DNA from: Allacma fusca
Lineage: Eukaryota > Arthropoda > Collembola > Symphypleona > Sminthuridae
Direction: 5' to 3'
Assembly (NCBI GenBank): GCA_947179485.1
Contig: OX359247.1
Location: 39,346,801 to 39,410,800, forward strand
Length of the DNA stretch: 64,000 nucleotides
Shown: positions 11,571-58,770 of the stretch, piece by piece
How positions within the stretch are numbered: the stretch's first letter is position 1
How the letters are laid out: each line of letters starts with the position of its first letter
The notes under the pieces: model-generated
Told to the model about the DNA's origin: nothing
The model's database searches: none
What the model saw: the letters and a program-made list of their open reading frames with translations, nothing else
Translations under genes and position numbers: made by a program

Positions 11571-11578
11571 GCGCATCC

Positions 11579-13054: not shown

Positions 13055-13119
13055 GCGCATTACTGATATTAGCATCTGCTTTCTTTTGCTTATTAAATGG
13101 CTGTTTTTACATATATAAA

Positions 13120-13330: not shown

Positions 13331-13356
13331 AATGAACGTTTCTACTGCTGTAGAGA

Positions 13357-14118: not shown

Positions 14119-14126
14119 GTTCAAGT

Positions 14127-16895: not shown

Positions 16896-17755
16896 ATCAA
16901 AAAAGGCCTTTGGTTATAAGACTGGTTTAAATCTCCCATTAAATGCCAGAACTGACTATTGTCAGAATATATACAAGAATGCCGTCACAACCAATACACA
17001 GTGTCAGGAGATTTTCTATATTTTGAAATCTGCGAGATATATAAGAACAGTATTTTAAATCCAGGCCCTGTTTTACACGTTCGAAGGAAAAGTACTTTCC
17101 CCCGCACCGTTACTCTAGGCGTTTTTAATAGAGTTCGAGCACATCAAGTCAACTGACTGCTTCCATAGCTTTTTAGTAAATCTAACAATGAGTAAATCTA
17201 ATTGAGCAATGTGTAATATTATATGAATATGCCCACTGAGCTAAATTTTTGCTTAGACTTACTGCACTGTTTTCATTTTCTGCTTCCTCATCCAAATCTG
17301 AATCCACATTTTAAACTTCAAACATATCGTAGTCTACAACTATATTATCTTGTTGTGTAATGGGACCAGCATTATTTGTAATAACTGACGAAAAATCTTC
17401 CACTAAACTCTTATCAATATTACGAACTGTTGCAAGTAACAAATCTCTTTCTTTATCAATTTTACGCTGTTTTGATCGAGTACTAATACAAAACCCCGTT
17501 TCTGTATTAAATAGTTATAATACACTTAGTTAATATAATTCACTAATTGTCAGACAGTTCTTCAACAGTGGGTTGATTAGATACTTGTTGTTGGCATGCT
17601 GGACGTTCTCCGCGTCGATCTCCGGAGCCACCAAACCACTTTGGCACACACTTGTCTACCTCCGATTCAGTTGGGGAGGTGGATTATGATTTCGGTCTCA
17701 AGCTCGCTAGAAACAAGTTATGTTTCAAAATGATTTACAACTGAATTTGCACAAA
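16896..17755. other. Spacer with weak minus-strand coding-like stretches
   Basis: No confident gene. On the minus strand about 17493-17282 reads as a Lys/Arg- then acid-rich segment (containing KIDKERDLLLATVRNIDKS) with one internal TAA and ends at a GTAAGT-like donor, and about 17655-17545 reads VPKWFGGSGDRRG before a stop. These could be extra exons of the adjacent DUF4806-like gene or parts of another decayed gene. The same sequence is at 26549-27408. Confidence 0.3.
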
Positions 17756-19277: not shown

Positions 19278-19295
19278 TTTTCTTCACTTTTTAAA

Positions 19296-20528
19296 ATGGC
19301 AAATCCAGTTCCACCACCTCCAAATTCTTTATCCTTGCCTGACCCATTCCCCTACGATACTCCTACGGAATTGACGTCCTGGATACGAAGATTTCAGAGG
19401 TTTGTTAAATTAACAAAAATTACAGACGATGAAGAAAAGATAGAGTCCATGCTTTACCATATGAAGGGAAATGCGGATGACATCCGTGATGCATTTCAAC
19501 TGAGTAAAACCGACAATAAGGACTTTGATAAAGTTTGTGCAGCATTCCATGCTTATTTTATAGGCAAAGTGAACGTTTTAGTGGAACTTGTAGTGTTTAA
19601 CTCCCGAGTACAAAGGGAAGGAGAAACGATTGACGAGTTCATCACAGCGCTACATAAGTTAGCCAGCACCTGCAATTATCAGTCTTTACAAGATGAGTTA
19701 ATTCGTGACAGAATACTCACAGGGTGCCAAGATAGAACAGCGTCCATGCAATTACAAGCTAGGGACAAGCTTACTCTTGAAGAGGCAACCACTTATGTCA
19801 AAATGCAAGCAAAGCTAAAAAAACAACAAAATGTTATTTCGGGAAAAACTTCGGACGCGGACAGAGTCTTCATGAAGAAAGGCTCCCGGTTCAAAGGAAA
19901 ACCCAATAACAAATCTACAAACAAATGGGAATGCTACAACTGCGGTGGAGCGAATAAACATTCCAAAGAAGAATGCCCCGCTAAAGAGAAAAAGTGCAAC
20001 AATTGTGGCAAACTTGGCCATTATGCGAAGATGTGTAAATCCAAATCCAAATCTAAACCCAAAGTACATGAAGTTGCTGAGGAGGTTACGGAAATTACGG
20101 ATGACGACTCAGACAACAGTGCTTTTACGGGAGAAGTCAGCAGGATTAACGGGCGGTCAAGTACAACCCCCAACTTGGCTGAAGATCATCCCAAGCGTAG
20201 CTGGTCAACTGCAGTCACGGTGGGAAATGTCCCCATCATCTTCAAACTGGATACCGGTGCGGATTTTACAATAATTCCGGAACACATTTTCCAAACTTCA
20301 CTATCGAGGGCGATTCCTCACCTGAGACCTACAGACCGTGCATTTAGAGCAGCTAACGGTACAGCTCTGCAAATCACTGGTAGGTTTAAAGCTTTATTAT
20401 CTTACAAGGCCCACACAACCAAGGCAGACATTTACGTTGCCATGGGTCTTAGACAGCCGCTATTAGGGCGCAATGAATGCTTGGATTTGAAATTAATCAA
20501 GCTTACAAATAATTCAATTGATATGTGA
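19296..20528 (+). pseudogene. Truncated Gypsy gag-protease frame (copy 1)
   Basis: First 410 codons of the Mag-like Gypsy gag-pol frame, identical to the start of 28949-32017. It includes gag, two CCHC zinc knuckles (CYNCGGANKHSKEEC and CNNCGKLGHYAKMC) and the protease DTGAD motif. The frame ends immediately after the duplication break: the three non-templated junction bases TGA (20526-20528) form the stop codon. RT, RNase H and integrase are missing. Confidence 0.9.
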
Positions 20529-20530
20529 AC

Positions 20531-20692
20531 CTCCAATGTGAAACCATTAAATGCTTTCGACTTGGTCATGAAGCTGTGAACATAAGCGTAAACTTTCTCG
20601 GCCAAAGGATGAACGCTATTTTCATTTGAATCATTTGTCACACATTGTCCACAAACCGCTAGTATGGAGAGAATTCCTGGTAATAACCACAT
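20531..20692 (-). pseudogene. Orphan SEC14-like exon 1 (copy 2)
   Basis: Identical duplicate of exon 1 (signal peptide and N-terminal segment) of the gene at 11039-8637. The duplication break lies in its donor site: GAG|GTAAAT has become GAG|GTTCAC, and the downstream exons are replaced by antisense Gypsy sequence. It cannot encode the lipid-binding domain, but its promoter region (20693 onward) has been duplicated intact. Confidence 0.85.
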
Positions 20693-21231
20693 TGTAAAAT
20701 TTATTTGAGCAAATGTAACACTTTAAACTTATAGATAATTATTACAACAGGAGATTTGCAATCCCAGTAATTTTTGGGAAGATTCTCAGTGCAGCTTGCA
20801 ACTGCACCTCGAACTAACAACTTTTACTTTTAAATATTCAGAAGTGAATCAACTTATTTATATATGATGAAAAATTAGCCGTAGGCTTTAGGGAATTTCC
20901 TTACGAAAACAAACTTTTGTAATTCTTGGTAAAGAAATAGAATTTACCTGATTCTGCTGTCGGTTTTAAAAACTGGAAGCATCAGTTTGCTCCATGTCGG
21001 GATCCAGGACATGTCTCCAATTAAAAAAAATACGATTTTTTAATGGAAAACTGTGACTGTGAGACAAACCCAGAAATATATCCACATAATACGTTGTCCA
21101 TATACATAACTATAATCAGGATTAGTCTGTTTGCATGTCATCAAGGTAAAAACGTGAGGAATTAATGAGATATTTACTAGTTACTCTATTGCACATTTGA
21201 AATCGTGAGTCCCGACCAAAAAAGCGCATCC

Positions 21232-22707
21232 ACAGCTTCGTTACGTTACGTTACACTACCACGAAAGGTTTTAAAAGTGTCGTTAATTATCATTACGTTA
21301 CTAAATATCGTAAGCAAAATTCAGCGTTACCGTTACGTTACTACAAGACAACGGTTATACTCCAGCGTTAGTTTTCGTTACCATTATAAAATATAAAATA
21401 ACCGTTACTCTCCGTTATCGTTATTATTATTGTCCGCTCGTTATAAACTAAAATGTCAAACTAGTGTTGCCAGACGTTCCTGGTATGCAGGAATTGTAGC
21501 GAAAAGGCAATTTACAGTTTCTGTGCAGTTTTTTATTCAGCTGCAATGTGATCCGCTTCCCGACTACCCGATATGGTAATCTCGTCATTTTCCTTTTTTG
21601 AAATTCCTTTTTTCTGCTTTTACTAGCAGCAGTATTCTCCATGATTACTAAAAACTCCGTTAGCACCAAAACTTAATTCTTATGCCGATCACACATCATT
21701 TTTAGGGTGGCGTCAGCCCCGTAGTAAAATAGCCTTGTCCGTACGTCCGTACGTCCATGTGTCCCTACGCACGATTACGCAAAAACTACTGAACCGATTT
21801 CAATGAAATTTTTTATGGGCATTACTTGTATCAAACGTAAGGCTGAGTTCGTATTTGGTTGAAATCGGCCCGATAGTTTTTTCGAAAAATTTCTTGAAAT
21901 TTTGGACTTTATGTCAATGACTGTTATCTCTAAAACTACTGAATCGATTTCAATGAAACGTTTTGTGAATATTGCTTATGTAAATAGTAATGGCTACCGT
22001 ATATGACGTTGAAATCGGCCCAGTAGTTTTTTCAAAAACAAATCTTGAAATTTTGGACTTTATGTCAAATCACTTATCTCTAAAACTACAGAATCGATTT
22101 CAATGAAACTTTTTGTGAATATTGCTTATGTAAAACGTAATGGTTACTGTCTATTTGGTTGAAATCGGCCCGATAATTTTTTCGAAAACAATTCTGAAAT
22201 TTCGAAAAAAACGAAAAATTTTCCTACTTTGACGGCCGCGGCTGACGCCACCCTACGCGAAGCCTCAAATTATCGCGTAGCGATGATTTTTAGTGAGCAA
22301 AAGCGTGTGGATTGAGCAAACCAAAGAGCCAAAAACTTCCTATTGAAATTTCCCATGTTTTCAATAATGCACATAAATGATGTTCCGAGCTCAGGATGTC
22401 CACATCCAACTCAAGTTGTTAACATCCCCCCGTTTATTTGCATGCACAGGTACTTCAAGCAAAGACAATAATAGATGCCAATGCGTAATGCAAAAATATA
22501 TATGTACACGCATCTATTACTTTGATAGCGTTGCGTTACGTTACAATATCGTTTTCTGCTTACACAAGCTGGAACGCTATAGTTACTCCGATAAATGTTT
22601 AGCACACCCTAGTGCCGTTACCGTTACGTTATTATCTGCTCCAAATATAGGCCGTTACGTTAAAAACGGCGTTATTGCGTTATTGTTGGGTAAAAGTAAC
22701 GTAACGG
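21232..22707. mobile_element. CGTTAC-repeat element, duplicate
   Basis: Copy 2 of the element at 11579-13054, with CGTTAC clusters at both ends and the same nested DINE-1-like element. Borders carry the same uncertainty. Confidence 0.5.
21698..22293. mobile_element. DINE-1/Helentron-like element, duplicate
   Basis: Copy 2 of 12045-12640: GGTGGCGTCAGCC end, three internal repeats, inverted GGCTGACGCCACC and the CTACGCGA/TCGCGTAG stem. Confidence 0.6.
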
Positions 22708-23009
22708 GCGCATTACTGATATTAGCATCTGCTTTCTTTTGCTTATTAAATGGCTGTTTTTACATATATAAACCAGACATGTCCAGCCTTCGAAGGCTAG
22801 CCTTCAATGAAGGCTTCATTGAAGGCGGAATATCAATTTTCCGGAGAGTTGGGAAGGGAAGGCGGGATGACTGAATTAATTCTGGAAGGCTAAAGAAAGC
22901 TTTCCTAGTATTAACAGAAAACGGAAGGCGAAGGAAGGAGTCTGTAAAGTAGTCTTCTGCTACTTAGAAGGCTTCACGCATACAATGAACGTTTCTACTG
23001 CTGTAGAGA

Positions 23010-23205
23010 GTACTCTCCCCTCCGCTCCAACTGTTCTGTCGAGTTGGGGGCACCACGCACTAGTTGCGGATGCTTCAATAGGGAATCCTATTGAATTCCT
23101 CAATCCCTTTCAATAGGGATTCAATAGGATTCCCTATTGAAGCATCCGCAACTAGTGCGTGGTGCCCCCAACTCGACAGAACAGTTGGAGCGGAGGTGAG
23201 AGTAC
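23010..23205. repeat. 87-bp-arm inverted repeat, duplicate
   Basis: Copy 2 of the hairpin at 13357-13552, with the same spacer and arm mismatch. Confidence 0.9.
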
Positions 23206-23779
23206 GTACGTATTAAATTTAAAATAGTAAATGGTGATTATAAATAAAATGTATAGTATAAGAGTGTTATAAGTGAATACATTGTGTGTAAATGTTTGTG
23301 AGAATTATCATTATTGTCATGAGTAATAAGTATTAATTATTTGTATAGTAGATTTCATGAAATTGGTTGGCGCCGTTGTGGATAGGAGTTATGTAGCTGC
23401 TAATTCATGGAGTCATGGAGAATTCTTCAGCTGGAGTTTCAGAGGACTATTCTGCAGAATGTAAATTTTTCTAGAACTCAAAAATATACATGAATTAGTA
23501 TTATCTTTTGACTATAAAAATGTAACCCAGTATTTTTGTGTTTCTACAGGGTGACAACAATTTTGGTGATTCTGATTTCATCACTGATGGAAAAACAGTT
23601 GTGACGAATTTCATCGTGATAGTTGTGTAAGATAGGGCGAAGGGTCTGCGGGCTGATACCCTTGCGGTCCGTAGATCCCGGGAATTTATCTATGATGCCG
23701 GTTATGGTGTAATGGGGTCGTCTTGCATTATGAACACTCGTTACTTGTGTGTCAAATTAATTTAAATTGCGGTTCAAGT

Positions 23780-24295
23780 CAGGGTTGGTTTGGTTTAAAC
23801 CATATGATTTAAACCATGGTTTAAACCATGGTTTAAACCAAACGGTTTTTTTGTAAAAACCAATGGTTTAAACCAAACACCTGAAATGTTAATATTTTCA
23901 ATCCAAAATGCTTATATTTCGTTGAACACAAAACTTGTGATATTGTGTAGTTAAACTTTAGTGAAGTAAATAATACTATTAGCTTTTAGTCTTGTACATT
24001 TAGAAATTCGGAATCGTTTGTAAAATGAAAAATGCCAAACTTGTGTTTATGCTGCAAAGTTATCGTTAAAATTACATCTAAATTATTAAATATTTAATGC
24101 TTTGTGATACTTACTGAGTTTGGGAAATAAGTAAATTTGTTCAAATTCACATGTTTTTGCATATTAATGAATGTTTTGGATTGAAAATTTGTTTAAACCA
24201 AAAAACCTGGTTTAAACCAAAAGAAACCCGGTTTAAACCAAAAAAACCTGGTTGTTTGGTTTTTTTGAAAAAAACCAAAAAAACCCCCAACCCTG
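23780..24295. mobile_element. hAT MITE with GGTTTAAACC repeats, duplicate
   Basis: Copy 2 of 14127-14642 with the same flanking GTTCAAGT/GTTAAAGT. It arose by the segmental duplication, not by a new insertion. Confidence 0.8.
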
Positions 24296-24676
24296 GTTAA
24301 AGTGCTCCGCGGGACTCGGAAACCTTTGCCCGTGCATGGTATTCTATTGCTTAATAATGCTGGTCGGGTCCATTATACTTGGGGATAAGATGAATTACCG
24401 AGAATGGAATATTCTTGAGTTCCATAATTGTTCTTTTGATTTTCTATTAAAATTGTGTTGAGTAAAATTTGGTCAGTAGGTCTGATGGAATTTATGAACA
24501 CCGAATAAGCATTGAATGGAACAAATTTTCCACTGCAGCTGTATGATGTTTTGTAGATCTTCGAAATCCTTCGTCTTTTGGTGTATCAATATTTGAAGGA
24601 ATTATTTTTTGAGTCTTCCTCTAAAAGTTGTCGTTGAGTTCTACAAACTCTTTTCGTAGGTAAGACTCTGAATGTT

Positions 24677-26548
24677 CTAAGAATTAAGTAGTGATGCTGG
24701 TTCAGACGTAGAATTTTCAATAAGAGCAGGCAGGTCATTAGATGCATCTTTAGAAGGGTTTAGCACCAATGGGGGAAGGTCACCTCTTGGGGGAGGGGGG
24801 CCTTCCATAGGGGGTGGGGGGTTTGTGGGTCCCCCGGAATCGTAAGGTCCTATACGGGTCATGCCCGATTTTTCTTGCTCTAAAGACTTTTTTCACTTTC
24901 CAAGGCAAATTTTCACGGTCAGGTGAGGTCACAGGACCTGTAGAGGCAATTGGATCTTTTGTTAAATTTTGTAAACTTGTTGACGGCTCCGGAATTGGAG
25001 TCGGATGTGCTGTGCTCAATAAAGATGGTGGTTGGAACCAGTTGGGACGTTCAAAAAATGTCTTAAACCTTGATACGTGTACTGTCATTGTTTTTATAGC
25101 TGTGACGGTGAGACGACTTATTGTATAATTAACTTCGGACGGAATGTCTATGATGCTGAAAGGTCCCTTCCATCGGGGAAGAAGTTTTGTGCTTGTTTTT
25201 GGCTGAATTGAAGTATGCTCTAATAGCACATTATCTCCGATTTCATATGTATCTGTGAGTTTATTTTTGTTAACTCGTGCAGCATATTTTTCTCGATGGC
25301 ATGTAAGAATGTCATGTGTTGATTTCCATAGTTCACCCATATTTTGGATATTCTGGTTTTCTGGTGAGTATGTGGGAAATGCATTTTTTAAAGGTGTGCG
25401 AGCATAGAACCCATGTAACAGAAAGAACGGGGTGTACCCGTGAGAGGTATGTGGCGTGTTATTGAGATGGAAGGTTAGAGCAGGTAGCGCCACAGGCCAG
25501 TCAGCCTTATCCTCAGCATTGTACATGGCGATAGAATCTCCAAAATTTTGATGTGTCCTTTCAACGAGCCCTTGGCTCTGCGGATGAAACGTAGTGGAAA
25601 ATTGCATGTTAAACGCAAACATTTTGGAAAGTTCAGTGATCACGGAATTATTAAATTCGGTACCCTGGTCAGTCTGTATAATTTCGGGTAGTGAGTACAA
25701 ACAGGCGAGTTTATTGCAGATAAAATTCGTAATTGTTTTGGCATCTGCTACTAAGACAACGTCAGTAACTAGAAATTTTGTCAAATAACAGATGGCTGTG
25801 ATTATGTACCGTGGGCGGCCGACTTGATTTGTTAGTGGACCTTGGATGTCCATTTGAACTCTCTCAAAAGGGCGGAGAGGAATTGGAATGTATTGGAATT
25901 CTCCTGGTAGTTTTTAACCTCTGGGTGCTTGTCGCTCCTGGCAGATTGTACAAGATTGAATGAATATGTGAAGGTCTTGAGACATGGTTCTCCAGTAAAA
26001 ACGTTTTTGTAGGTTCTGTAAAGTCATGGTGTGTCCCATATGGCACACAGGATTGTGATGATTTTGAATCATGTCAGGGACCATCTGCTTGGGTATGACA
26101 ATGAGCGAGGTTTCACCTTGTTTTGAATCATATTTGTCCAAAATAGAGTCAATTAAGGTATACTTTGACTTCAACTTCCAAGTTGTGGTAGTTTCGTAAT
26201 TATTTTTTCAATGGCTGGGTCATTTAGTTGTTCTTCTAGGAGAGTAGAAATGCTGATGGCGTGGATGGTGAGACAGGCTTTATTATCTGTTTCTGAGTGT
26301 TCAGGCTCTGCAAATGGATTTCTGCTCAGACAATCAGCTACACTACGTGTGGTACCTTTAACATATTGAATGGTTATGTCATAGGGCATAAGTAGTAACT
26401 GGAGACGTTGGAGCTTCGCGTCCAAGTCATCTTTGGTCTTCATGATGTAACAGAGGCTATGATGATCTGTCTTCACTGTGAAGGGAATGCCTAAGAGGAA
26501 TTCTTTGAGCTTCATGGTAGCCCTTGTGATGGCTAATAATTCTAGGCA
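24677..26548 (-). mobile_element. Ty3/Gypsy RNase H-integrase remnant, duplicate
   Basis: Copy 2 of 15024-16895 with the same frameshift and in-frame TAA. It carries the one base difference I noticed between the copies (A at 25113 where copy 1 has C at 15460), just inside the integrase C-terminal part. Confidence 0.85.
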
Positions 26549-28948
26549 ATCAAAAAAGGCCTTTGGTTATAAGACTGGTTTAAATCTCCCATTAAATGCC
26601 AGAACTGACTATTGTCAGAATATATACAAGAATGCCGTCACAACCAATACACAGTGTCAGGAGATTTTCTATATTTTGAAATCTGCGAGATATATAAGAA
26701 CAGTATTTTAAATCCAGGCCCTGTTTTACACGTTCGAAGGAAAAGTACTTTCCCCCGCACCGTTACTCTAGGCGTTTTTAATAGAGTTCGAGCACATCAA
26801 GTCAACTGACTGCTTCCATAGCTTTTTAGTAAATCTAACAATGAGTAAATCTAATTGAGCAATGTGTAATATTATATGAATATGCCCACTGAGCTAAATT
26901 TTTGCTTAGACTTACTGCACTGTTTTCATTTTCTGCTTCCTCATCCAAATCTGAATCCACATTTTAAACTTCAAACATATCGTAGTCTACAACTATATTA
27001 TCTTGTTGTGTAATGGGACCAGCATTATTTGTAATAACTGACGAAAAATCTTCCACTAAACTCTTATCAATATTACGAACTGTTGCAAGTAACAAATCTC
27101 TTTCTTTATCAATTTTACGCTGTTTTGATCGAGTACTAATACAAAACCCCGTTTCTGTATTAAATAGTTATAATACACTTAGTTAATATAATTCACTAAT
27201 TGTCAGACAGTTCTTCAACAGTGGGTTGATTAGATACTTGTTGTTGGCATGCTGGACGTTCTCCGCGTCGATCTCCGGAGCCACCAAACCACTTTGGCAC
27301 ACACTTGTCTACCTCCGATTCAGTTGGGGAGGTGGATTATGATTTCGGTCTCAAGCTCGCTAGAAACAAGTTATGTTTCAAAATGATTTACAACTGAATT
27401 TGCACAAATTACCGTGCTTGATGTTTTTTACAAGTGCACTTATTAATATCCAAAGAATGATTGAATAGCGTTTTACCAATTAAGCATAGTCGCATACGAT
27501 GACTCTTGAAGCTTATTTTCTCATTTGCTCCGGAACAATTTACATCACGAGCAAGCTCTGGGGAAACAATTCTCTCCAAAATCCGCCGAATACAATCTTT
27601 TAAGCTGGAACCTCCAATTCCCTTCAGATAATTTGACTGATTTTTTTGAAATATTATTATAATTTTGTTTATTTTGATAATCCAGTGCAGTTGTAGTTCA
27701 AAACTAAATTTAGAAAGGCTCCAGTGGCTTGCAATTTTTCAAAGAAACAAATAAATCGACAACATTACACTCAAAATTAAAAATTGCAATCGTAGTAATA
27801 CTAATAATAATTAGCAGGCGTTGGTAAGTCAATTAACCGAGAATCCTTACTTAAGTACTATCTTCGATTGTACTTTTAAAAAGTAATATTAAAATGATGA
27901 AAATATTCATCCGTAAAGCACAATATACATTTTGAAACAATTTTATGGGAATATGGTATTTAGAATACATTAGGTAAGTCCAGAATTATTATCCAATATG
28001 AGCTCAAATTTAAAACACTTTTCATTTCTGCTGTGATAATTACCCTTAATCATTATTTTTATTATAATGATGTTCGTACCAGTTTATTTTGATTCTCTGG
28101 CGACTGTAGCCAATTCTGAAGAATCGCAAAAGATTTCCCGTCAGAAAGAGGAAGTCCTACACCCAAGGGAAGGCCGAGATCTTTCACTGTTAGGGGCGAC
28201 ATCATACTCTAATTTTCCGAGAGCGATCTTTTCAAAATCTTAAGAAAAGAGTAATTCCTATCAGCTGAGATATGTAGTAACAATATAATGCATATGTCAT
28301 TCTAAAACATGTGAAAGTAGATACTATTTTACTTTGAAATTCCAAACGCAATTTTTCGAATTCATCGCCTAAAAGCTCCAGCCTTGTAACGACTTTCTGC
28401 AACGTCTGGTGGTCGTTATCAATACCGTTGTTGTCGGGTGTATTAGTATTTGAATAAACATCTTCAGTAACCGTAAATACATTTGCGTCGGCCCAATTTC
28501 TGGATCAAGAACTACAAACTTATTGTCACATGTAGAGGGAAAATGATGTCATAATGAAACAAAACAAGTAGCATTAAATAATTACTTTTATGCTACTATG
28601 ATCGAGGAGAGAATTGTTTCAAGTCGTTTTGAGGAAACTACAATTCATTGCAATTTAGGAAAACATGTTCCCAAACTGCGTGTTAAGTTGGTCATAGTTT
28701 TTAGAAATTCAATTCATTGCTGTTTCAATGATAAATTTCTGTATTTAAAAATAATTTAGAAATTCCAAATCCGTTGCTTCAAAGATGTTCCCAATATTGG
28801 CGTGTTCTTCAGAAAGGGAATTGATTTCTGCAATGGCTGATATACTGCTCACACTAACTGCAGCCAAATTGTTTTCGCCGTCAATTACTTTTCGCAAAGT
28901 TTTCTCGAGTTCAACGACTTTCAAGTCCTATTTTCTTCACTTTTTAAA

Positions 28949-31900
28949 ATGGCAAATCCAGTTCCACCACCTCCAAATTCTTTATCCTTGCCTGACCCAT
29001 TCCCCTACGATACTCCTACGGAATTGACGTCCTGGATACGAAGATTTCAGAGGTTTGTTAAATTAACAAAAATTACAGACGATGAAGAAAAGATAGAGTC
29101 CATGCTTTACCATATGAAGGGAAATGCGGATGACATCCGTGATGCATTTCAACTGAGTAAAACCGACAATAAGGACTTTGATAAAGTTTGTGCAGCATTC
29201 CATGCTTATTTTATAGGCAAAGTGAACGTTTTAGTGGAACTTGTAGTGTTTAACTCCCGAGTACAAAGGGAAGGAGAAACGATTGACGAGTTCATCACAG
29301 CGCTACATAAGTTAGCCAGCACCTGCAATTATCAGTCTTTACAAGATGAGTTAATTCGTGACAGAATACTCACAGGGTGCCAAGATAGAACAGCGTCCAT
29401 GCAATTACAAGCTAGGGACAAGCTTACTCTTGAAGAGGCAACCACTTATGTCAAAATGCAAGCAAAGCTAAAAAAACAACAAAATGTTATTTCGGGAAAA
29501 ACTTCGGACGCGGACAGAGTCTTCATGAAGAAAGGCTCCCGGTTCAAAGGAAAACCCAATAACAAATCTACAAACAAATGGGAATGCTACAACTGCGGTG
29601 GAGCGAATAAACATTCCAAAGAAGAATGCCCCGCTAAAGAGAAAAAGTGCAACAATTGTGGCAAACTTGGCCATTATGCGAAGATGTGTAAATCCAAATC
29701 CAAATCTAAACCCAAAGTACATGAAGTTGCTGAGGAGGTTACGGAAATTACGGATGACGACTCAGACAACAGTGCTTTTACGGGAGAAGTCAGCAGGATT
29801 AACGGGCGGTCAAGTACAACCCCCAACTTGGCTGAAGATCATCCCAAGCGTAGCTGGTCAACTGCAGTCACGGTGGGAAATGTCCCCATCATCTTCAAAC
29901 TGGATACCGGTGCGGATTTTACAATAATTCCGGAACACATTTTCCAAACTTCACTATCGAGGGCGATTCCTCACCTGAGACCTACAGACCGTGCATTTAG
30001 AGCAGCTAACGGTACAGCTCTGCAAATCACTGGTAGGTTTAAAGCTTTATTATCTTACAAGGCCCACACAACCAAGGCAGACATTTACGTTGCCATGGGT
30101 CTTAGACAGCCGCTATTAGGGCGCAATGAATGCTTGGATTTGAAATTAATCAAGCTTACAAATAATTCAATTGATATGGTAGGAAGCTACACTAGCGTAG
30201 TTCCTCAGTCAGAATTTCCAAAATTATTTCAGGGTTTAGGGACCATGTCCCAACCTTATACAATTAGGCTTAAAGAAGGGGCACAGCCTTACGCTATAGC
30301 CCAGCCTAGAAAAGTTGCAATCCCACTTCTTGATAACCTCAAGGCAGAGTTAAACAAGTTAGTGAAGCAACAAGTAATTAAACCCATAGATGAGCCAACT
30401 GAGTGGTGCTCACCCATTGTGGTTGTTAAGAAACCCAATGGGGAGATAAGACTTTGTAAGGATTTCACAAAGTTAAATGAATCCATAGCTAGGGAATACC
30501 ACCCCATGCCAATAGTCTCAGAGACATTAGCTAAGATTCAGGGAGTAGTTATTTTCTCTAAAGGTGACAATCGTCAAGGATTTCACCAAATCAAATTAGC
30601 AGAGGCTAGTCAGAAGTTAACTACTTTTATCACTCCTTTTGGGAGATATTGCTGCTTAAGACTACCCTTCGGTATTAGCAGTGCTCCAGAGCACTACCAG
30701 AAGAGAATGTCAGAAGCATTAACTGGACTACCTGTCATACATCATACTGATGACTGGCTTGTGTGGGGACGCACACAAGAGGAACATGACCGAAACCTTA
30801 GACTGGTTTTACAACGTCTACAGGACAAAGGCATTACATTGAATGCCGACAAGTGTGAATTCGGCGCCAAGCAAGTTAAATTCCTAGGGCATATCGTAAC
30901 AGCCAATGGAATTAGCATTGATCCTAAACGGCTAAAAGCCATCAAGAATTTACCTACACCCAAGGACACTTCTGACGTTAGAAGTTTCGTAGGATTCGTT
31001 ATGTACGTGGGACAGTTCATTCCGAACTTGTCCGCAACAATGCAGCCCTTATACGCATTATTACAAAAGGATGCAGAGTTCAAGTGGGGGAGTATAGAAA
31101 AGCAAGCACATGCCACGTTAATAAGCCTATTAACGTCCGCCCCTGTGTTAGCGATCTATAACCCTAACTCTCCAACTACAGTCTCAACTGATGCTTCATC
31201 GTATGGCTTAGGCGCAATCCTCAAGCAGAAGCAACCAGATGGCAACTGGAGACTAGTGGCGTGTGCATCTCGCACACTCTCAGCCGCTGAGAAGAATTAT
31301 GCTCAGATCGAGAAGGAGTGTTTAGGAATAGTATGGGCCACCGAGAAATTCCAAGTATTTCTCACTGGTCTACAGTTTCAGGTCGAAACGGACCATAAGC
31401 CACTACTGGCGATACTGAAGACAAAACACTTGGACGAGTTATCACCTCGACTCCAAAGATTCAGATTACGTATGATGAGATACGACTTTACGATATATCA
31501 CACTCCAGGGAAGAACCTGATAGCAGCCGACTTTTTGTCACGGCACCCACTACCTACAGTGGGTAATCAAGACTTCACAGCAGATTGCGATGCCGCTATC
31601 TCATTATTTATTGATTCTCTACCAAGCACTATGCTTACCAAGCTTGAGGAAATCAAGGAGGCTCAACAGAAGGACGCTATATGTCAACAATTAGCGGAAT
31701 ACAGCCGTTCCAACTGGCCTCCCCTCAAGAAATTACCTGACAATTTGAGGAAATTTTACGCTCATAAGGAGGACATCACTGTCCAGGGAAACTTACTGAT
31801 GCGAGGCAACCGCCTCATCATTCCCAAGCTTTTGCATGCCGACATGCTCCAACGTGTCCATGCAGGGCACATGGGAATTTCCAAGGCAAGAGCCAGGGCC

Positions 31901-37775: not shown

Positions 37776-38056
37776 TGTTATGCATAAAGTTATAGGTTAT
37801 TGTTACTATGATTTCATTTGTTGGTAGTATTTGGACTTTGTTTGTATTTGTGAAGATGTTTGGTGTAAATTGAATGTATGTAATAGAGTGGAGAAAAAGG
37901 ATTCATTCACTGTCGAGAGACAGTGTGAGGAAGGTGATTGTGTCAAAGTTGTATAAGGAAAATTAATAAAGAAAATTGCACATAAGTGCTGGTCCTTCCT
38001 AAAGTTATTTTGCAGAGGTAAAATTAAAGACAATTTGATATAAAGAGACCATAACA
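37776..38056 (+). repeat. BEL/Pao 5' LTR
   Basis: Starts TGTTATGCATAAAG and ends CATAACA. It is followed at once by TGGCCTTTCGATCC, a TGG-initial sequence in the place of the tRNA primer binding site. An AATTAATAAAG signal lies near 37960. Confidence 0.9.
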
Positions 38057-38101
38057 TGGCCTTTCGATCCGAATTAACTAGTCCTACGGACCACAGTTCA
38101 A

Positions 38102-39469
38102 GTGAAAGTGAAGGCGAAGTTCCAGTCACCGCTAATGGTGGTGCCACCATTCGGAGATGTCAGCGTTTACATGGGAGCGCTCGATTTTACTGGAATGAAA
38201 ACTCCAATAAGAAAGAAGTTAGATGGGAGCGAAGAGCAAGTAAGCAAAGCAATAATAGACGAAGTTTCATCCCTGCGATCATCGTCTAACAAGGTAATTG
38301 CTCGGGCAACAACAAGTAGTAGTAGCGATGTTGCACGAAGAAGGTTGGAAGCTGAGTTACGAGCTAAAAGAGAGTTAGACAAGCTGGAGCAGGAGAAAGA
38401 AGAGCAACTCAAAACGTTACTAGAGAAACGGCTTGAGCTTCAAGCAAAAATTGTTGAAAAAAACTTGGAGTTAGAGAAAGCGAAAATTGATGAAGAGATA
38501 GAAGATGACGATAATCTTTCACAGATAATCGACGATGTTTTGCCTAACAACATTGATGAATGGGTAAACAACAACAAAGAGAAATGTGCTAAGGGAACTG
38601 TAGCAACCGAACAAGCCGAAAATCATATTCAACCAACTGCATGTAAAAATGACGTTGTAGAGATGAAGATTGATACGTTCCTTGCAAGACAGTCAGTTCC
38701 AAAGGAGCTTCCAATATTCAACGGCGAAATTACTGAATGGCCTATATTTAAGTCACAGTATGAGAGAACAACAAAAATGCTGGGACTATCTGATGACGAA
38801 AACCTGTCAAGACTACAGAAATGTCTTAGAGGGAGGGCGCGCGAAGCGGTTGTACCGTTCCTGCTACTGCCAGAAAATGTTTCACAAGTAATGAAGAATT
38901 CGGAGCTGATGTTCGGTAGAGGAGACCAGATTGTGGATTCCATGGTGGAACAAGTAAAATGTTTTTAGGCACCCAAGGAAAGTAAGCCTGAAACTTTGAT
39001 TTCGTTTTCTAATCTAATTGCGAATCTTGTTGCCACCATGAAAGCTCTCAAGAAGAGTGGACACATGATGAATCCGCAGCTTATAAAAGATTTAATTCTG
39101 AAACTCCCATATCAACTACGGTTCCGATGGCGTGAAAAGGCGAGGACATTGGAGTTGGAACCATCGTTGGAAGAATTGGCAAGATGGATGTCTGACGTTG
39201 CTATGACCGCAAGTTTGATGCCGACACAAGTTACAATGGAGAGTAAGCAAACGAACAATTATAAAAATGATTTCAAAACTGATCGAAATAAAAAACATGT
39301 TTTGAGTATAAATGAAAAAAGTGAAACAACGTGTCTAAAATTTCAGAGCAACGATCATTGTCTGAGCGATTGTGAAACGTTTCGAGCAGAACAAATAAAA
39401 TCTCCAAGGGATTTTGTATTACAAAATCACTTGTGTGTGTTGCTTAATGAGGGGGCATATTGGGCGTAG
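38102..39469 (+). pseudogene. BEL/Pao gag region (DUF1759-like), interrupted
   Basis: One frame covers a long Glu/Lys coiled-coil-like stretch and the DUF1759 gag core (LPIFNGEITEWPIFKSQYE near 38700-38760). It is cut by an in-frame TAG at 38966-38968, then continues in the same frame to 39469. A short frame starting at the LTR edge (38056-38289) probably held the true N-terminus before a frameshift. The zinc-knuckle part (C ... HIGRSC, then CKKYH) continues beyond 39440 in another frame. Gag packages the element RNA in particles; this copy cannot make an intact one. Confidence 0.85.
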
Positions 39470-39613
39470 TTGTAATGAGAAACAGATTTGTGGGCTAGAG
39501 GAATGCAAGAAATACCACAATAGGGTATTACATAAGAAGTCCACCAAAATGTAACCAAACCAGACGATTCAATTACCAGCAACAACAGTTTCAATGGTCA
39601 TGTTTGGAATGGG

Positions 39614-41386
39614 ATGAGAGAGACTCTACTACGCGTACTGCCAGTCACGTTGTCAGGACCTAATGGGATGATCAAGACACACGCATTGCTGGATGAAGGA
39701 TCTACCTTGATATTAGTAGATGAACAAATTGCCGTTCGACTTGGTCTGGTAGGAGAAGTAGATCCGCTGTGTTTACATTGGACCAACAATGTTACTCGAG
39801 AAGAGCAGTATTCACGGAGAGTTTCCCTTAGAATTGCTGGTGACAACGAAAAGGCAAAGATGTTCACCATTAGTAGTGTGAGAACAATTAATAATTTACA
39901 ATTACCAGAGCACACCATTGATATGAAAGAGTTGCGCAGAGAATGCAAACACTTGGATGATATTCCCTTCAAGTCACAGAAAAAGGTCAGACCCATGATA
40001 CTGCTGGGACAAGATAATATCATTTTGTCAACAGCAAGAAAACTTGTTCGAGGATCATGGTCAAGGCCAGTAGCAACTTTAACCGCATTAGTCTGGGTAG
40101 TTCACGGAAGAGTTCCAATGAAGAAAAGATTAGATGAAGTGTTGATGCTACACAGTAACGACGGGGACCGAGAATTGAAACGTCTCCTCAAAGACTCATT
40201 TTCCACGGAAAACTTTGGCGTTCAAGTCTCACCTAGAAATCAACAGTCAAGAGACAATGAGGCAGCTTTAAAAATTATGACAAATACGACCCGAAGAGTA
40301 GGTGATAGATTTGAAACCGGACTGTTATGGCGAAAGGAGCATGTGTCCCTTCCTGACAGCAAGAATACGGCTCTTCGAAGATTGCAATGCGTCGAGCGGA
40401 GGATGGACCGGGATTCAGAATTTGCGGCTACTTACAAACCGAAGGTTCACGAATTTATTGACAAAGGCTATGCGGAGCTCTTTTCACCAGAAGATGCAAA
40501 AAATCGAGGCCCACGAACCTGGTATATACCTCACTTCGGGGTTACAAATCCAAATAAACCGGGGAAGGTCAGGCTGGTATTTGACGCAGCTGCAAAGACT
40601 GAAGGTGTAAGTCTGAATAGTTGTTTATACAAAGGTCCAGATCTATTAAATGCACTTCCTGCTGTACTTTGGAGATTTCGTCGGTACCCAATAGCTGCTG
40701 TAGGTGACATCAAAGAAATGTTCCCGCAGATTATCATTAAGGGTGCAGATCAAGTCGCGCAAAGATTCTTGTGGAGAGGCATGGATAGGAAATCGCCTCC
40801 AAAGGTGTACAAGATGGTGAGGATGAATCTTGGAGCAGCATCATCACCATCCTCAGCAAATTTGGTGAAGAATTTGAATGCTGCCGAATTTAAAGAAGAC
40901 TATCCACGAGTTTTCCAAGAAATAATGCAAAATACATACATGGACGATCATCTGGATGGAGGATCCGACTACGAAGATCCGAAGAAACATATTACAGAAG
41001 TCATAAATGTCTACAAACAAGCAGGTTTTACCATTTGTAATTGGCACTGTAGTTCTAGAGATGTTTTAGCTTCAATACCTCCTGACCTTAGAGCAAATGG
41101 AAACGTAGATCTTTCCGGGAGTGTAGCATTATCAACCGAAAGAGTACTTGGATTGTATTGGAATGCTGAACAAGACGAGTTTTGCTTCAACTTTAAATTC
41201 CATAAAGTCGACCAAACAGTTGTGGAAGGAAAGAAAATACCATCTAAAAGAGATGTGTTGAAATTCCTTATGTCACTTTTCGATCCTTTAGGATTTCGCG
41301 CAAATTATCTGGTACGGGTAAAATATTGTTCCAGAAGATATGGAGGTCTGGAGTTCAATGGGATGATCAGTTATCTGCAAATCTGA
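39614..41386 (+). CDS. BEL/Pao protease and reverse transcriptase fragment
   Basis: A 590-codon frame. It begins with the aspartic protease (LLDEGSTLI, the DEGS form seen in BEL/Pao A17-type enzymes), then RT with LVFDAAAKT, GDIKEMFPQI (first catalytic Asp) and YMDDHLDG (Asp pair, nt about 40939-40962). The frame ends at 41386 by frameshift, and RNase H continues in 41326-41838. This is the longest intact piece of the element. Confidence 0.88.
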   Translation: MRETLLRVLPVTLSGPNGMIKTHALLDEGSTLILVDEQIAVRLGLVGEVDPLCLHWTNNVTREEQYSRRVSLRIAGDNEKAKMFTISSVRTINNLQLPEHTIDMKELRRECKHLDDIPFKSQKKVRPMILLGQDNIILSTARKLVRGSWSRPVATLTALVWVVHGRVPMKKRLDEVLMLHSNDGDRELKRLLKDSFSTENFGVQVSPRNQQSRDNEAALKIMTNTTRRVGDRFETGLLWRKEHVSLPDSKNTALRRLQCVERRMDRDSEFAATYKPKVHEFIDKGYAELFSPEDAKNRGPRTWYIPHFGVTNPNKPGKVRLVFDAAAKTEGVSLNSCLYKGPDLLNALPAVLWRFRRYPIAAVGDIKEMFPQIIIKGADQVAQRFLWRGMDRKSPPKVYKMVRMNLGAASSPSSANLVKNLNAAEFKEDYPRVFQEIMQNTYMDDHLDGGSDYEDPKKHITEVINVYKQAGFTICNWHCSSRDVLASIPPDLRANGNVDLSGSVALSTERVLGLYWNAEQDEFCFNFKFHKVDQTVVEGKKIPSKRDVLKFLMSLFDPLGFRANYLVRVKYCSRRYGGLEFNGMISYLQI

Positions 41387-43486
41387 CGTTGGAATGGAGA
41401 TCTTGGTTGGAAGACCTAAATGAAGCTTGTAAGTTAAGGATACCCAGGTGTTATCACAAGAAGTGTGTAACGGGGAAGAAATTACAGCTTCACACATTTG
41501 TTGATGCAAGTGAAGCTGCGTTTGCTGCTGTATCTTATCTATGGATGGAAGCGGACGACAAAGTTGCGGTTGCATTTATAGCTGCAAAAACAAACGTTTC
41601 GCCTCTAAGACCCCTTTCCATTCCGCGTTTAGAGTTGCAGGCTGCTATTCTGGGAGTCAGACTGGCTAAAACTATCAAAGAAAAGTTACAATTAGAAATT
41701 GAGAGAAGTGTATTTTGGTCAGATTCAAGAACGGTTATTTGCTGGATCCGGTCAGACGCTCGAAATTATAAACAGTTGGTTTTCCATCGCTTTGGAGAGA
41801 TTTTGGAGTCTACGGATGTGGAGATGGGTTCCTACTGACAAAAACGTCTCAGACAATGCCAAAAGGTCAACATCTCAAGAAATTAATACTAGTAGGTGAT
41901 TGTTGGGACCAGAATTTTTAAAATTAGAAGAGAAATTTTGGTCAGTGGAAAAGAAAGAGGAAGTTGGTTTGACTGGCGAAGAATAGAAAGCCGAGTTTCT
42001 ATTGGTTATAAGGGAGGACGTCAATTGTTCCCAGCTAAAATTACTACCAGATGTGAGTCGCTTTTCCAAATGGTCTAGACTAGTTCGAGCTACAGCTTGG
42101 GTGCAGATTACCGCGGGAGTTTGGCGAAAGAAAAGAAGTCGGCCATAAATTTAGAGGATTTGTTATTTGCTGATATATGTTGGTGGCGAAAGGTACAACA
42201 TGATTGTTTCAGAGAGGAGTTACTGTATCTAAAAGCTAACAAACGAGTTGAAAGCAGTAGTCGAATTGGGAAACTGGACGTGTTTCTAGATACGGACGGT
42301 CTCATACGTACGCGCGGGCGAACAAGTGAAGCTGTAAAAGAAGTCACAGAAACAGTAAATCCAGTTGTTCTTGATCATAAGCACCCATAAACTAAATTAA
42401 TGGTTATTCATTATCATGTTCAAGCTGGTCATCAGGGAAGAGAGACCGTGGTAAATAATTTGCGACAAAATTTCCTTATCCTTGGAGCAAGATCAGCTGT
42501 AAGGAAGATATTTGCAGATTGCTGTTGGTTTAAAATGATAAAAGTCAAACCCCAGATTCCCAAGATGACGGACTTCCCTCATTCGCGAGTTACATATAGC
42601 GGAAGAGCCTTCATGCAGACGGGAATGGACTTTTTTGGACCATTATATATCAAGGTTGGGCGAAGGAGAGAATAGAGGTACGGAGTCTTGTTTACGTGAC
42701 TAGCTATAGGGGCTGTGCACTTAGAAGTAGCATCAAGTTTGACGACTGACTCGGCGATTAACGCAGTACGTCGTTTCATTGACAGACGTGGTAATCCTTC
42801 CCACCTTTTTACGGACAATGGAAGCAACATGATTGGAGCTGAGAGTTACGAGAGGCTATACAAGAGATGAAGCAGGAAGAAATCGGAGATTTTGCAATTG
42901 GAAGAGGCTTTGTTTGGCATTTCATTTCACCATGAAGTCCTCATATGGGGGAAGTTGGGAGCGTCTGGTAAAGTCAGCGATGTATGCAACTTTGACTGGT
43001 TCCGTTTCTGAAGAAGTTCTGTTGACTCTGTTTACGGAAGCAGAGGCAGTGGTAAACAGTCGGCCTCTTACCCATGTTCCAGTTGATCCAAAGGATGGAG
43101 AGTGTCTAACACCTAACCATTTGTTGATTGGCCCAAGCTGCATTATATTACCTCCAGGTAAATTCTCAAATGAAGGTATTCAGTTGCGGAGTCAATGGAA
43201 GTTCTGCCAAAGGTTGGCGGATCACTTCTAGAGCAAGTGGTTAAAGGAATACGTTCCTACATTAGCCCGAAGAACTAAGTGGCTTAAAGAAGTTACTCCA
43301 TTAAGTGTCGGTGACCTGGTCATAATTGCGGACAATACTCAACCGAGAATGACATGGACAAGAGGCGAAGTTTCTCAGGTATTTCCAGGGAAAGATGGTC
43401 AAGTTCGTGTGGTTGATGTGCGGACGGCCTACGGAGTTTACAGGATACCGGCAGCAAAATTGTGTAAATTAGATGTAAAAGTTTAG
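41326..43486 (+). pseudogene. BEL/Pao RNase H, integrase and DUF5641 tail, broken
   Basis: Pieces in successive frames: RNase H-like part with FVDASEAAFAAV and LRPLSIPRLELQAA (41326-41838); linker and integrase zinc finger (42097-42390; AGHQGRETVVNNLR and a Cys near 42520); integrase core start (GMDFFGPLYI near 42625, TDNGSN near 42820 in another frame); later core (42833-43231, with GSWERLVKS and LTPNHLLIG); and a DUF5641 tail (43250-43486, SVGDLVIIAD, VYRIPAAKL). At least four frame changes or stops separate them. Not functional. Confidence 0.85.
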
Positions 43487-43519
43487 TAATAAAAGTTGTC
43501 CTTTTATGAGGGGAAGAAA

Positions 43520-43798
43520 TGTTATACATAAAGTTATAGGTTATTGTTAGTATGGTTTCATTTGTTGGTAGTATTTGGACTTAGTTTGTATTTGTGAAGA
43601 TGTTTGTTGTAAATTGAATGTATGTAATAGAGCGGAGAAAAAGGATTCATTCACTGTCGAGAGACGGTGTGAGGAAAGTGATTGTGAAAGTTGTATAAGG
43701 AAAATTAATAAAACAAGTTGAACATAAGTGCTGGTCCTTCGTAAAGTTATTTAGCAGAGGTAAAATTAAAAACAATTTGATATAAATATACCATAATA
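43520..43798 (+). repeat. BEL/Pao 3' LTR
   Basis: Counterpart of 37776-38056, starting TGTTATACATAAAG and ending CATAATA, preceded by a purine-rich GAGGGGAAGAAA tract (43509-43519). Confidence 0.9.
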
Positions 43799-43803
43799 AT
43801 ACC

Positions 43804-44638
43804 CTTTAGAGGAATTGAAATCATCTCTCGATCATCAATGAATGCAGATCACGTTAAAATTTATGTGCATAATTCGAAACGCGTACTATTGTAAATGTCT
43901 GGTGTTTAATCAAAAGTATTGACCAGCTTGAATTGTCTTTCATGTGTGATTTTACGCAATACTGTCTTTTGAGTAGAACCTTAAAATTAGTTCTATTCCA
44001 TATGATGTAATCAAACTAATAATTTATTCTTGCAATGTCAAGTTTATGCCTGTTGGAATAAAAGGAACAAATATGCCATAGGCGTTTACTGATACTAATT
44101 GCTTATTTGTATTATCAGTTACATTCTCTCATAATAAAATTCAACTAGATCATGGGAATCTTGTTTAACGCGCAGAAAGTAATTGCTACTTACAATTAGT
44201 TTAAGGACTGTTGACATTTATTTTAGTTTTGTTTTCCAGAAATATGTAGCATTTTAATAAATGCGAAAAAGATCCATCCAAATACATATTTAACGAGAAT
44301 CAGAATTACTTTTATTCAAATTCGTTACTTACTAACAGTTTGTCCACATTAATATAACTAAATATTATTAGACCAAGGTGCATTACCATAATAAAAACTC
44401 CTAGATTCAGCTGTTGAAAGGAAACAACTCAAGATCAGTTTTTATAACTGAATTCGTTCGCCTAATATTGTACATAGTATCGTTAGTTATCTACCTGTAA
44501 TAATAGACCTGAGTAATGCCAGTTCCCAGTTTAGCCCTGTAATATCTTTAAAACGTGTTATCTGAGGCTACGCCTCTGGTTTCATCCTAATTATTGTTTT
44601 CATAAATTGCTATCGCAGATTTTTATTGTTTCCAAAAT
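43804..44638. other. Downstream region of the terpene-synthase-like gene
   Basis: AT-rich, no open frame of note. The part near 44622-44640 forms the 3' end of the minus-strand gene, with AATAAA overlapping its stop codon and a second AATAAA about 15 bp further on. Confidence 0.5.
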
Positions 44639-45829
44639 TTATTGTTGTTCAATCAAACTGAAAGTGGACTTTTCGAAATTAATTTCTAAGCGCGAATTGT
44701 ATCTGCGCATTAGAGCTTGGGACTGAATGTTACAAGCAACACATTCGCTCAGGCAGAAAGTAGACTTCACAAAAATTTGTTTCTCCTCTTCGGTGAGTTC
44801 GTACAAACAGTCGTATTGGTTAGTTTTAAAAGATTCAAACAAATCATAAAATTCTTTCAGAGCCAAGTTATGCTTTCTTATGGACTTAGACACGGCCTCC
44901 TCAAAGGAGCAGTTCGTAGTTTCCATGCGATGAAAGATGACATTATCCTGTCGCTTCCCGGTCCGTAGTGCTTCTTGCGATTCCCTCTCCGCCCCAATGA
45001 TATCATTCGCTCGGAGAATCAAGAATGCTGCAATTTCATAGATTCTGAGCCAGAACGGATTTATTCTCACAGATATCGGGATGTAAATTCGCTCAAGTAG
45101 GAATATAACTTCCTCGGAAAAGTTAATCCCACCCGTAAATATACGCAGATTATATTGTGTGTAAGAGTTGAGGAGATAGGACTGATCTTTATAGTTGCAC
45201 CAAGTTTGCATATTATAGGAATTGGCCGTGGTGCGGGCAAAATACTTTCCCAAGTCTTTGGTAACCCCATAATTTATCTTTAAATCCATTGCACAGTCAT
45301 GGAGTAGTTCCATGTAGAAGCTAACCGGTTCCGATATTTGGGCGATAAGCGGGTACAGTTCATCCTTTCGGACGTCATCAATAGTATCAAACTCAAGTTC
45401 TAATATTTTGTTTATAATCCTCCCAACGGATTGGACAAAAATGCGGTGATGGTTCTCACCCGCTTGCTCTTCCGCTAGATCGTCAACTCGAAAAAGCACA
45501 TGTACCACTTTGCTGTACAAGATCAGTTTTGAGAGAATGGCTGGTTCCTCTGCCCTTTGACGCCAGTATGACGGGCAGCTGTAGAAAGAAAAAACAACGG
45601 AGCTTTCAACATGTTGTAATGCGTTGTGTAAGAGTTCTTCGGAAAAGCGCGTTTGGAAAAAGTTTTTCAAAGTTTCGATGAGCTTTTGTATTATTTCCCA
45701 GTTTGTATGTTCTTCCCATACGTAGGGCCAACAAAACAAAAATTTCCCCTTTAATTTAGCCTCCTGAGTTCCTAAGGTCACATTCTTGTCAAACGTGGCA
45801 TGCAATAATTCGTCTTGGAGACCAGCCAT
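44639..45829 (-). CDS. Class I terpene synthase-like protein (microbial type), intronless
   Basis: A 396-codon single-exon gene. Residues 116-121 (DDLAEE) form the aspartate-rich metal-binding motif DDxx(D/E). Residues 275-283 (NDIIGAERE) form the second Mg-binding (NSE-type) motif, with Gly where Ser/Thr is usual. Arg229 lies exactly 46 positions before that motif, the known position of the pyrophosphate-sensor Arg, and an Arg-Tyr pair sits at 376-377 near the C-terminus. The segment after NSE (NVIFHRMETTNCSFEEAV) also follows the bacterial/fungal pattern. Such enzymes ionise prenyl diphosphates and cyclise them to volatile terpenes. Length is normal to slightly long. Lack of introns among intron-bearing neighbours suggests lateral origin. 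The substrate cannot be predicted. Confidence 0.8.
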   Translation of the reverse strand: MAGLQDELLHATFDKNVTLGTQEAKLKGKFLFCWPYVWEEHTNWEIIQKLIETLKNFFQTRFSEELLHNALQHVESSVVFSFYSCPSYWRQRAEEPAILSKLILYSKVVHVLFRVDDLAEEQAGENHHRIFVQSVGRIINKILELEFDTIDDVRKDELYPLIAQISEPVSFYMELLHDCAMDLKINYGVTKDLGKYFARTTANSYNMQTWCNYKDQSYLLNSYTQYNLRIFTGGINFSEEVIFLLERIYIPISVRINPFWLRIYEIAAFLILRANDIIGAERESQEALRTGKRQDNVIFHRMETTNCSFEEAVSKSIRKHNLALKEFYDLFESFKTNQYDCLYELTEEEKQIFVKSTFCLSECVACNIQSQALMRRYNSRLEINFEKSTFSLIEQQ

Positions 45830-46095
45830 TTTGTAAAAATAAAAATAGTTGCTCTTGACTAAAACCGATTTAAATCTCAGGAACGATTAGGACGACTACG
45901 AAATTTTGCGTAAAATCTCACAATTGTTTTCAATTTACTTGGAGATTGTAACTTTTTTAGGTGCCCGTAGTATTAAGTTACCTAAATGAAATATTTCTGA
46001 AATAGCGATTTACAAAGGAAGGAATTGACCTGTAGTGTCTACTTAGACTATTTTTCGGAAAGTGTTGGATTGAAATCTGCATCAGGTATTAATAT
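45830..46095. other. Short upstream region of the terpene-synthase-like gene
   Basis: About 270 bp between the gene start (45829) and the 334-bp tandem repeat; presumably the promoter. AT-rich, no clear TATA or initiator that I would defend. Confidence 0.35.
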
Positions 46096-47097
46096 ACCAT
46101 ATTGACAAATATGTACATATTTATACCCCAAGCTACGATTTTGCTCTTGATCACTTGATTACTCTTTTATTATTTTAAGCTTTATCTTATTTCTCGATTC
46201 AATCTTATTTGATTGCCGAAAAACAATTGGAAAGTTTCTTGAAATTTTAAATAGCCATAGTTCTTGTTTGTGATTTCGTAGGATTGAATGAAACATTCAA
46301 TGTATTTCTGGAATGTGGTCGAAATGAAAATTAATCAAAATGGCCAAAATTAAGGCACTCCATCAGTATTCAATGTGAAAGTTAAATCCATGATATCATT
46401 GTGCGAGCTGGACGAGTGTGTTTTAATTTACCATATTGACAAATATGTACATACTTATACCCCAAGCTATGATTTTGATCTTGATCACTTGATTACTCTT
46501 TTATTATTTTAAGCTTTATTTTATTTCTCGATTCAATCTTATTTGATTGCCAAAAAACAATTGGAAAGTTTCTTGAAATTTTAAATAGCCATTGTTCTTG
46601 TTTGTGATTTCGTAGGATTGAATGAAACATTCAATGTATTTCTGGAATGTGGTCGAAATGAAAATTAATCAAAATGGCCAAAATTAAGGCACTCCATCAG
46701 TATTCAATGTGAAAGTTAAATCCATGATATCATTGTGCGAGCTGGACGAGTGTGTTTTAATTTACCATATTGACAAATATGTACGTATTTATACCCTAAG
46801 CTACGATTTTGCTCTTTATCATTTGATTACTCTTTTATTATTTTAAACTTTATTTTCTTTCTCGATTCAGTTTTATTTGATTGCCGAAAAACAATTGGAA
46901 AGTTTCTTGAAATTTATAAGGTCATTGTTCTTGTTTTTGATTCCGCAGGTTGGAATGAAATTTTCATTGTTTTTCTGGAATGTGGACGAAATGAAAATTC
47001 ATGAAAATGAACAAAATAATGGTACTCCATTCGGATTCAATGTAACTTTTAAATCCAGGTTATTATTGTGCGAGCTGGAGCAGTTTGTAGTGATGCT
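46096..47097. repeat. Three tandem copies of a 334-bp repeat
   Basis: Units start ACCATATTGACAAATATG at 46096, 46430 and 46764. The first two are nearly identical; the third is clearly more diverged (for example TTTATACCCTAAGC and changes through its second half). No coding content. It sits directly upstream of the terpene-synthase-like gene. Confidence 0.92.
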
Positions 47098-57753: not shown

Positions 57754-58770
57754 CAAGTCACATTATAAAAACCTATGCTCAGTCACAGGTTAAAGTCCTA
57801 TGCTCAGTCACATGTTAAAGTCCTATACTCAGTCACATGTTACAGTCCACTGCTCAATCACATTTTACAGTCCTATGCTCAGTCACATGTTAAAGCCCTA
57901 TGCTCAGTCACATGTTAAAGTCCTATACTCAGTCACATGTTAAAGCCCTATGCTCTGTCACATATTACAGTCCTATGCTTAGTCACATGTTACAGTCCTA
58001 TGCTCAATCACATGTTAAAGCCCTATGCTCAGTCACATGTTACAGTCCTATGCTCAGTAACATGTTAAAGTCCTATGCTCAGTCACATGTTACAGTCCTA
58101 TGCTCAGTAACATGTTAAAGTCCTATGCTCAGTCACATGTTACAGTCCTATGCTCAGTCACATGTTAAAGTCCTATGCTCAGTCACATGTTAAAGTCCTA
58201 TGCTCAGTCACATGTTAAAGTCCTATGCTCAGTCACATGTTAAAGTCCTATGCTCAGTCACATTATAATGTCCTATGCTCAGTCACATGTTACAGTCCTA
58301 TGCTCAGTCACATGTTACAGTCCTATGCTCAGTCACATGTTACAGTCCTATGCTCAGTCACATTATAATGTCCTATGCTCAGTCATGTTACAGTCCTATG
58401 CTCAGTCACATTGTCATGTACTATGCTCAGTCACATTATAATGTCCTATGCTCAGTCACATTATAATGTCCTATGCTCAGTCACATTATAATGTCCTATG
58501 CTCAGTCACATTATAATGTCCTATGCTCAGTCACATTATAATGTCCTATGCTCAGTCACATTATAATGTCCTATGCTCAGTCACATTATAATGTCCTATG
58601 CTCAGTCACATTATAATGTCCTATGCTCAGTCACATTATAATGTCCTATGCTCACAATCAGTCCAATTATAATGTCCTATGCTCAGTCACATTATAATGT
58701 CCTATGCTCACAATCAGTCTAATTATAATGTCCTACGCTCACAATCAGTCATATTATAAAATCATATGCT
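57754..58770. repeat. Minisatellite A, 25-bp unit, about 40 copies
   Basis: Unit core CTATGCTCAGTCACA followed by a 10-bp variable part: ATGTTAAAGTC-like or TTACAGTC-like in the left half, and the homogeneous TTATAATGTC form from about 58430 on. The zoned distribution of variants indicates local expansions. Reads as open frames only because the period is not a multiple of three and stops are rare in some frames. Confidence 0.95.

Follow-up and report, generated by a model that had tools for sequence, protein, structure and literature searches.

A predicted class I, microbial-type terpene synthase in the genome of the globular springtail Allacma fusca, and its family

Introduction

Canonical terpene synthases of fungus gnats, springtails and mites are reportedly described in the 2024 study of Chen et al., which is said to include activity for selected enzymes. 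Here we analyse a gene encoding a predicted class I terpene synthase in a 64-kb stretch of DNA from Allacma fusca (contig OX359247.1, positions 39,346,801 to 39,410,800), a globular springtail of the Sminthuridae (Symphypleona); this whole stretch is called the window throughout. The gene in the window encodes the same kind of predicted enzyme as the canonical arthropod synthases of Chen et al. 2024, which reportedly include those of springtails.

For trombidid mites, PMC6275457 describes terpene synthases that are encoded by multiple genes and probably came from microbes; the first-pass annotation of the window had likewise stated that laterally acquired terpene synthases were reported in these mites. 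On that description, the mites and A. fusca have in common that an arthropod genome carries terpene synthases as multiple genes, and they differ in the class of arthropods to which they belong. Synthases similar to those of beetles are mentioned there for a springtail, Folsomia candida (PMC6275457). In fungus gnats, five terpene synthase genes appear to be derived from mites, according to a passage of PMC12051294 that cites Chen et al.

The enzyme kind is already in print for mites and, reportedly, for springtails, and the gene in the window is an added member. Because these canonical synthases were already published, reportedly those of springtails too, the novelty of the gene is lower than the first-pass annotation had implied. 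Our literature search retrieved no paper pairing terpene synthase with Allacma, a result that does not show the A. fusca family to be unpublished.

Results

We assign the gene, with a probability of about 0.9, as one member of a family, encoding a predicted class I, ionisation-initiated terpene synthase of microbial type and resident in the nuclear genome of A. fusca or a closely related springtail. The assignment is supported by a profile match, the fold of the predicted model, the conservation of catalytic motifs, the count of 14 public A. fusca homologues and the adjoining retroelements. A microbial-type terpene synthase in an arthropod genome was also what the first-pass annotation had proposed, and its position for the gene was correct, with the minus strand as the coding strand.

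The 1191 bases of the locus (Table 1) form one open frame of 396 codons and a stop codon on the minus strand; reading the plus strand from position 44639 encounters many stops. In 200 mononucleotide shuffles of the entire window, the longest stop-free run in any frame reached 211 codons, compared with 397 codons, including the stop, for the open reading frame (ORF). Because the shuffle maximum was that short, a chance origin of the frame was rejected. The gene had been annotated as intronless, in line with the unbroken ORF and with the equal length, 396 residues, of the best public protein, P0001. A tblastn search of the window with nine family proteins (P0001 to P0009) matched this locus only and revealed no second terpene synthase.

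The encoded protein matches Pfam PF19086 over residues 166-325 with an E-value of 3.1e-7 and 30.8 bits, above the curated cut-off of 23.7. Its predicted model shows the all-helical class I terpenoid synthase fold, decorated with an N-terminal beta hairpin (residues 7-30) and a C-terminal strand (383-389), and the nearest folds to this model are bacterial and fungal synthases. The lack of a profile match or of a fold match had been named beforehand as grounds for refuting the annotation, and neither occurred. With the A1 profile, a solved structure was matched at E 0.0006. The window protein is 12-15% identical to the bacterial CyS (7y88), selinadiene synthase (4okm) and T-muurolol synthase (9hqd), from which it differs at metal site B by a glycine where these enzymes have serine or threonine.

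Two figures weigh against the assignment: the identity to the listed solved synthases amounts to only about 10-16%, and the sequence of the window protein, taken by itself, has no significant match to a solved structure (best E 0.067). For P0014, no sequence of a solved structure was matched up to E 1. Among NCBIfam models, the window copy alone has four matches up to E 1, all far below cut-off, of which two are bacterial sesquiterpene synthases and two are unrelated, and at most three of the 15 members of alignment A3 match any terpene-related model.

All motifs reported by the first-pass annotation are present, namely D116-D117 with E120, N275-D276 with G279 and E283, R229 (275-229 = 46) and R376-Y377. 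Class I synthases feature an arginine placed 46 residues ahead of the second motif, as well as an RY pair. We assessed the conservation of these residues in the 15 rows of A3, counting the rows that cover each column. The first motif, DDLAEE, fits the aspartate-rich pattern DDxx(x)D/E; D116 is kept in 13 of 13 rows, D117 in 14 of 14, and E120 in 13 of 14, the remaining one having Asp. N275, D276 and E283 are invariant (14/14 each), R229 occurs in 13 of 14 rows (one Cys), and the RY pair is found in all nine rows.

The second motif, NDIIGAERE, fits the broad form (N/D)DXX(T/S/G)XXXE, which is quoted for plant enzymes, and departs at Gly279 from the strict form with a central Ser or Thr. We filed it under the broad form, for which the Ser or Thr is not needed. 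The first-pass annotation had attached special weight to this glycine, which might alter metal binding or activity. That weight is lessened by its frequency in the family, where position 279 is Gly in 11 of 14 rows, Ser in two (P0005 and P0014) and Ala in one (P0006), and by the plant synthase consensus quoted in PMC5333544, which permits Gly. The same paper describes an active enzyme with Gly at that site and Val replacing Glu, for which water at the metal is invoked (PMC5333544). Because the family is mostly of the Gly type, the consensus allows Gly, and an active Gly enzyme is described there, Gly279 is, as judged from sequence, neither unique to the window copy nor a sign of inactivity. 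In the family tree, the metal-B residue changes at least three times, where the minimum for three states is two. P0005, with Ser, groups with good support as the sister of a Gly-type protein; the placement of P0014, which carries Ser in the second motif as opposed to Gly in the window copy, is unsure on its long branch.

Three protein searches returned 9, 11 and 14 homologues, all of them from A. fusca and each listed with one contig. These 14 proteins (P0001 to P0014) may be separate loci, alleles or fragments, and five of them carry the source name "Terpene synthase" or "Terpenoid synthase". They share the family and its motifs with the window copy, in which Phe57 and Ser284 are peculiar. 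P0001 is the nearest with 97% identity over the full length; for the remaining 13, identity to the window copy lies between 25% and 77%, P0014 being the most distant at 25%. To be retrieved by the protein search, a protein must have exact 5-residue words in common with the query. Within this limit, no homologue beyond Allacma was found up to E 10, and mites, gnats and other springtails may still be relatives. Nor did protein searches up to E 10 link the family to any other arthropod, and no mite protein was found with the A. fusca family profile at E up to 10 in a search bound to the same exact words. A tblastn search of plasmids with P0014 gave no match. To date, A. fusca or a closely related springtail is the only source in which the family has been seen.

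The window copy and P0001 differ at ten residues, which may reflect alleles, paralogues or separate species. The distribution of these differences counts against the assignment. Phe57 stands in a column that is Trp in P0001 and in 11 of 11 further rows, Ser284 in one that is Trp in P0001 and in 11 of 12 further rows (Leu in P0014), and Ser100 in one that is Ala in 9 of 11 rows. P0001 clearly departs only at column 166 (Ser in 10 of 11 rows), and the six remaining differences fall in variable or less clear columns. The end branch of the window copy in the family tree is also longer, 0.019 compared with 0.0035 for P0001. Because of these three substitutions and the longer branch, the window copy may be under relaxed constraint or functionally altered. 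A decaying or functionally changed paralogue, whose frame is still open while its synthase activity is being lost or changed, is an alternative that we consider rather unlikely. It would agree with the short or internally gapped proteins P0003, P0004, P0006 and P0007, which could also be faults of gene models; against it, the frame of the window copy is full-length, every metal and diphosphate residue is retained, and the near-identity to P0001 extends from end to end.

A very improbable alternative to the canonical microbial type is an insect-style synthase with an isoprenyl diphosphate synthase as its ancestor. Terpene synthases of this derivation exist in flea beetles (PMC6275457) and termites (PMC13143122), and PMC6275457 places the F. 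candida enzymes closer to those of flea beetles than to non-animal ones. We rejected this origin for the window gene because the polyprenyl synthetase family (PF00348) is missing from its Pfam matches up to E 1; these are limited to PF19086 plus a phage model that stays under its cut-off. The second motif is also NDxxGxxxE, not DDxxD, and the bacterial and fungal folds nearest to the predicted model point the same way.

Springtails feed on soil bacteria and fungi, of which terpene synthases are typical, yet contaminating microbial DNA fused to an arthropod contig is scarcely credible and was rejected, because a BEL/Pao element with LTR-like repeats and hAT elements lie beside the gene, Gypsy-like frames occur in the same 64 kb, the base composition in 2-kb bins forms no island (GC 0.40 at 42-44 kb, 0.37 at 44-46 kb and 0.32 at 46-48 kb), and the 14 A. 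fusca relatives face zero microbial proteins up to E 10. BEL/Pao elements are an animal group. When genome contigs of bacteria and archaea were scanned with A2, on the basis of one peptide pattern, five stretches fitted this pattern and none was a relative. Contaminating DNA had been named as a second ground for refutation, and nothing points to it.

The predicted synthase gene thus lies in retroelement-bearing surroundings. The BEL/Pao element ends 0.84 kb from its stop codon, hAT fragments are located at 49.3 kb and 54.6 kb, and Gypsy-like and LINE-like frames, named from their domains, occur elsewhere in the window. Of the three tandem units upstream of the gene, the nearest one shares 98% and 87% identity with the two that lie farther away, and no further copy was found in the window.

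Table 1. Coordinates of the synthase gene, its motifs and the adjoining features in the window
Feature	Position	Strand	Remarks
Terpene synthase ORF	44639..45829	-	396 aa, single exon; profile, homologue and predicted-model matches
AATAAA, possible polyadenylation signal	44622..44627	-	Directly after the stop codon; read from the sequence
C-terminal R376-Y377 pair	44699..44704	-	
Ser284	44978..44980	-	From A3
NDIIGAERE, second metal motif	44981..45007	-	Residues 275-283; Gly279 replaces Ser/Thr
Arg229, putative diphosphate sensor	45143..45145	-	46 residues before the second motif; role by analogy
DDLAEE, aspartate-rich motif, first metal site	45467..45484	-	Residues 116-121; role by analogy
Phe57, family Trp column	45659..45661	-	From A3
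BEL/Pao retroelement	37776..43796	+	LTR-like direct repeats 37776-38054 and 43520-43796; Pao peptidase PF05380, E 3.3e-40
Three tandem 334-bp units	46086..47079	.	First unit 257 bp upstream of the ATG

The first-pass annotation had set the intronless synthase against two neighbours with introns. One of them, a SEC14/CRAL-TRIO-like gene on the minus strand (8637-11039), is a plausible gene judging by a splice made by hand, and this part of the contrast is weakly supported. We found six exons, separated by short introns. Joined, they reached 18.1 bits with CRAL_TRIO, short of its cut-off of 22.6, and the frame seems to be broken in the third exon. A first rough join of the exons gave no Pfam match. 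The other neighbour, the DUF4806-like gene, was not found in the window, where no search in earnest was made for it.

A retroelement-rich stretch of 9653 bp, which takes in exon 1 of the SEC14-like gene, is present twice, head to tail (10876-20528 and 20529-30181). The two copies share an exact run of 4584 bases, with an identity of 0.998 to 1.0 in 500-base bins, and represent either a very recent duplication or an assembly artefact. The window also contains a tandem array of a 25-bp unit with about 38 copies (57756-58710) and a second 25-bp array from 58776 to at least 58999.

Discussion

A lateral origin of the window gene is likely, on the basis of the enzyme type and the literature. Knowledge of the enzyme family suggests that the likely course would be a lateral transfer long ago, after which the gene was duplicated.

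The proposed reaction follows established knowledge of class I synthases. The aspartate-rich motif and the N/G/E motif would hold three Mg2+ ions binding a prenyl diphosphate (GPP, FPP, GGPP or longer), whose diphosphate would be sensed and held by Arg229 and the RY pair. Ionisation would give an allyl cation, and cyclisation or quenching of this cation would yield a terpene. The missing Ser/Thr hydroxyl at metal site B would probably be replaced by a water molecule, as work on plant enzymes suggests.

We know of no enzyme that is assigned to the higher terpenes of springtails. According to PMC11321324, these unusual terpenes occur on 16 of 23 springtail species analysed, and a source in the ubiquinone pathway is proposed for the cyclic ones; the words "terpene synthase" are absent from its main text. 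It is conceivable, if doubtful, that the A. fusca family forms a canonical clade, acquired on a separate occasion, diverging fast and mostly of the Gly type, which radiated in globular springtails for lineage-specific terpenes, possibly surface lipids made by cyclising long prenyl diphosphates and comparable to the unexplained cyclic higher terpenes found on other springtails. Against such lineage-specific terpenes, the only Symphypleona species analysed in PMC11321324, Sminthurides aquaticus, lacked terpenes except the compound "ch". The product may serve the surface, defence or signalling.

That animal genes of microbial type make terpenes has already been argued for mites and, reportedly, for springtails and fungus gnats as well. 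What A. fusca adds is a concrete set of genes to assay, with 14 canonical synthases, complete or partial, in a single species, and the Gly, Ser and Ala relatives within one genome offer a natural comparison of metal-site variants.
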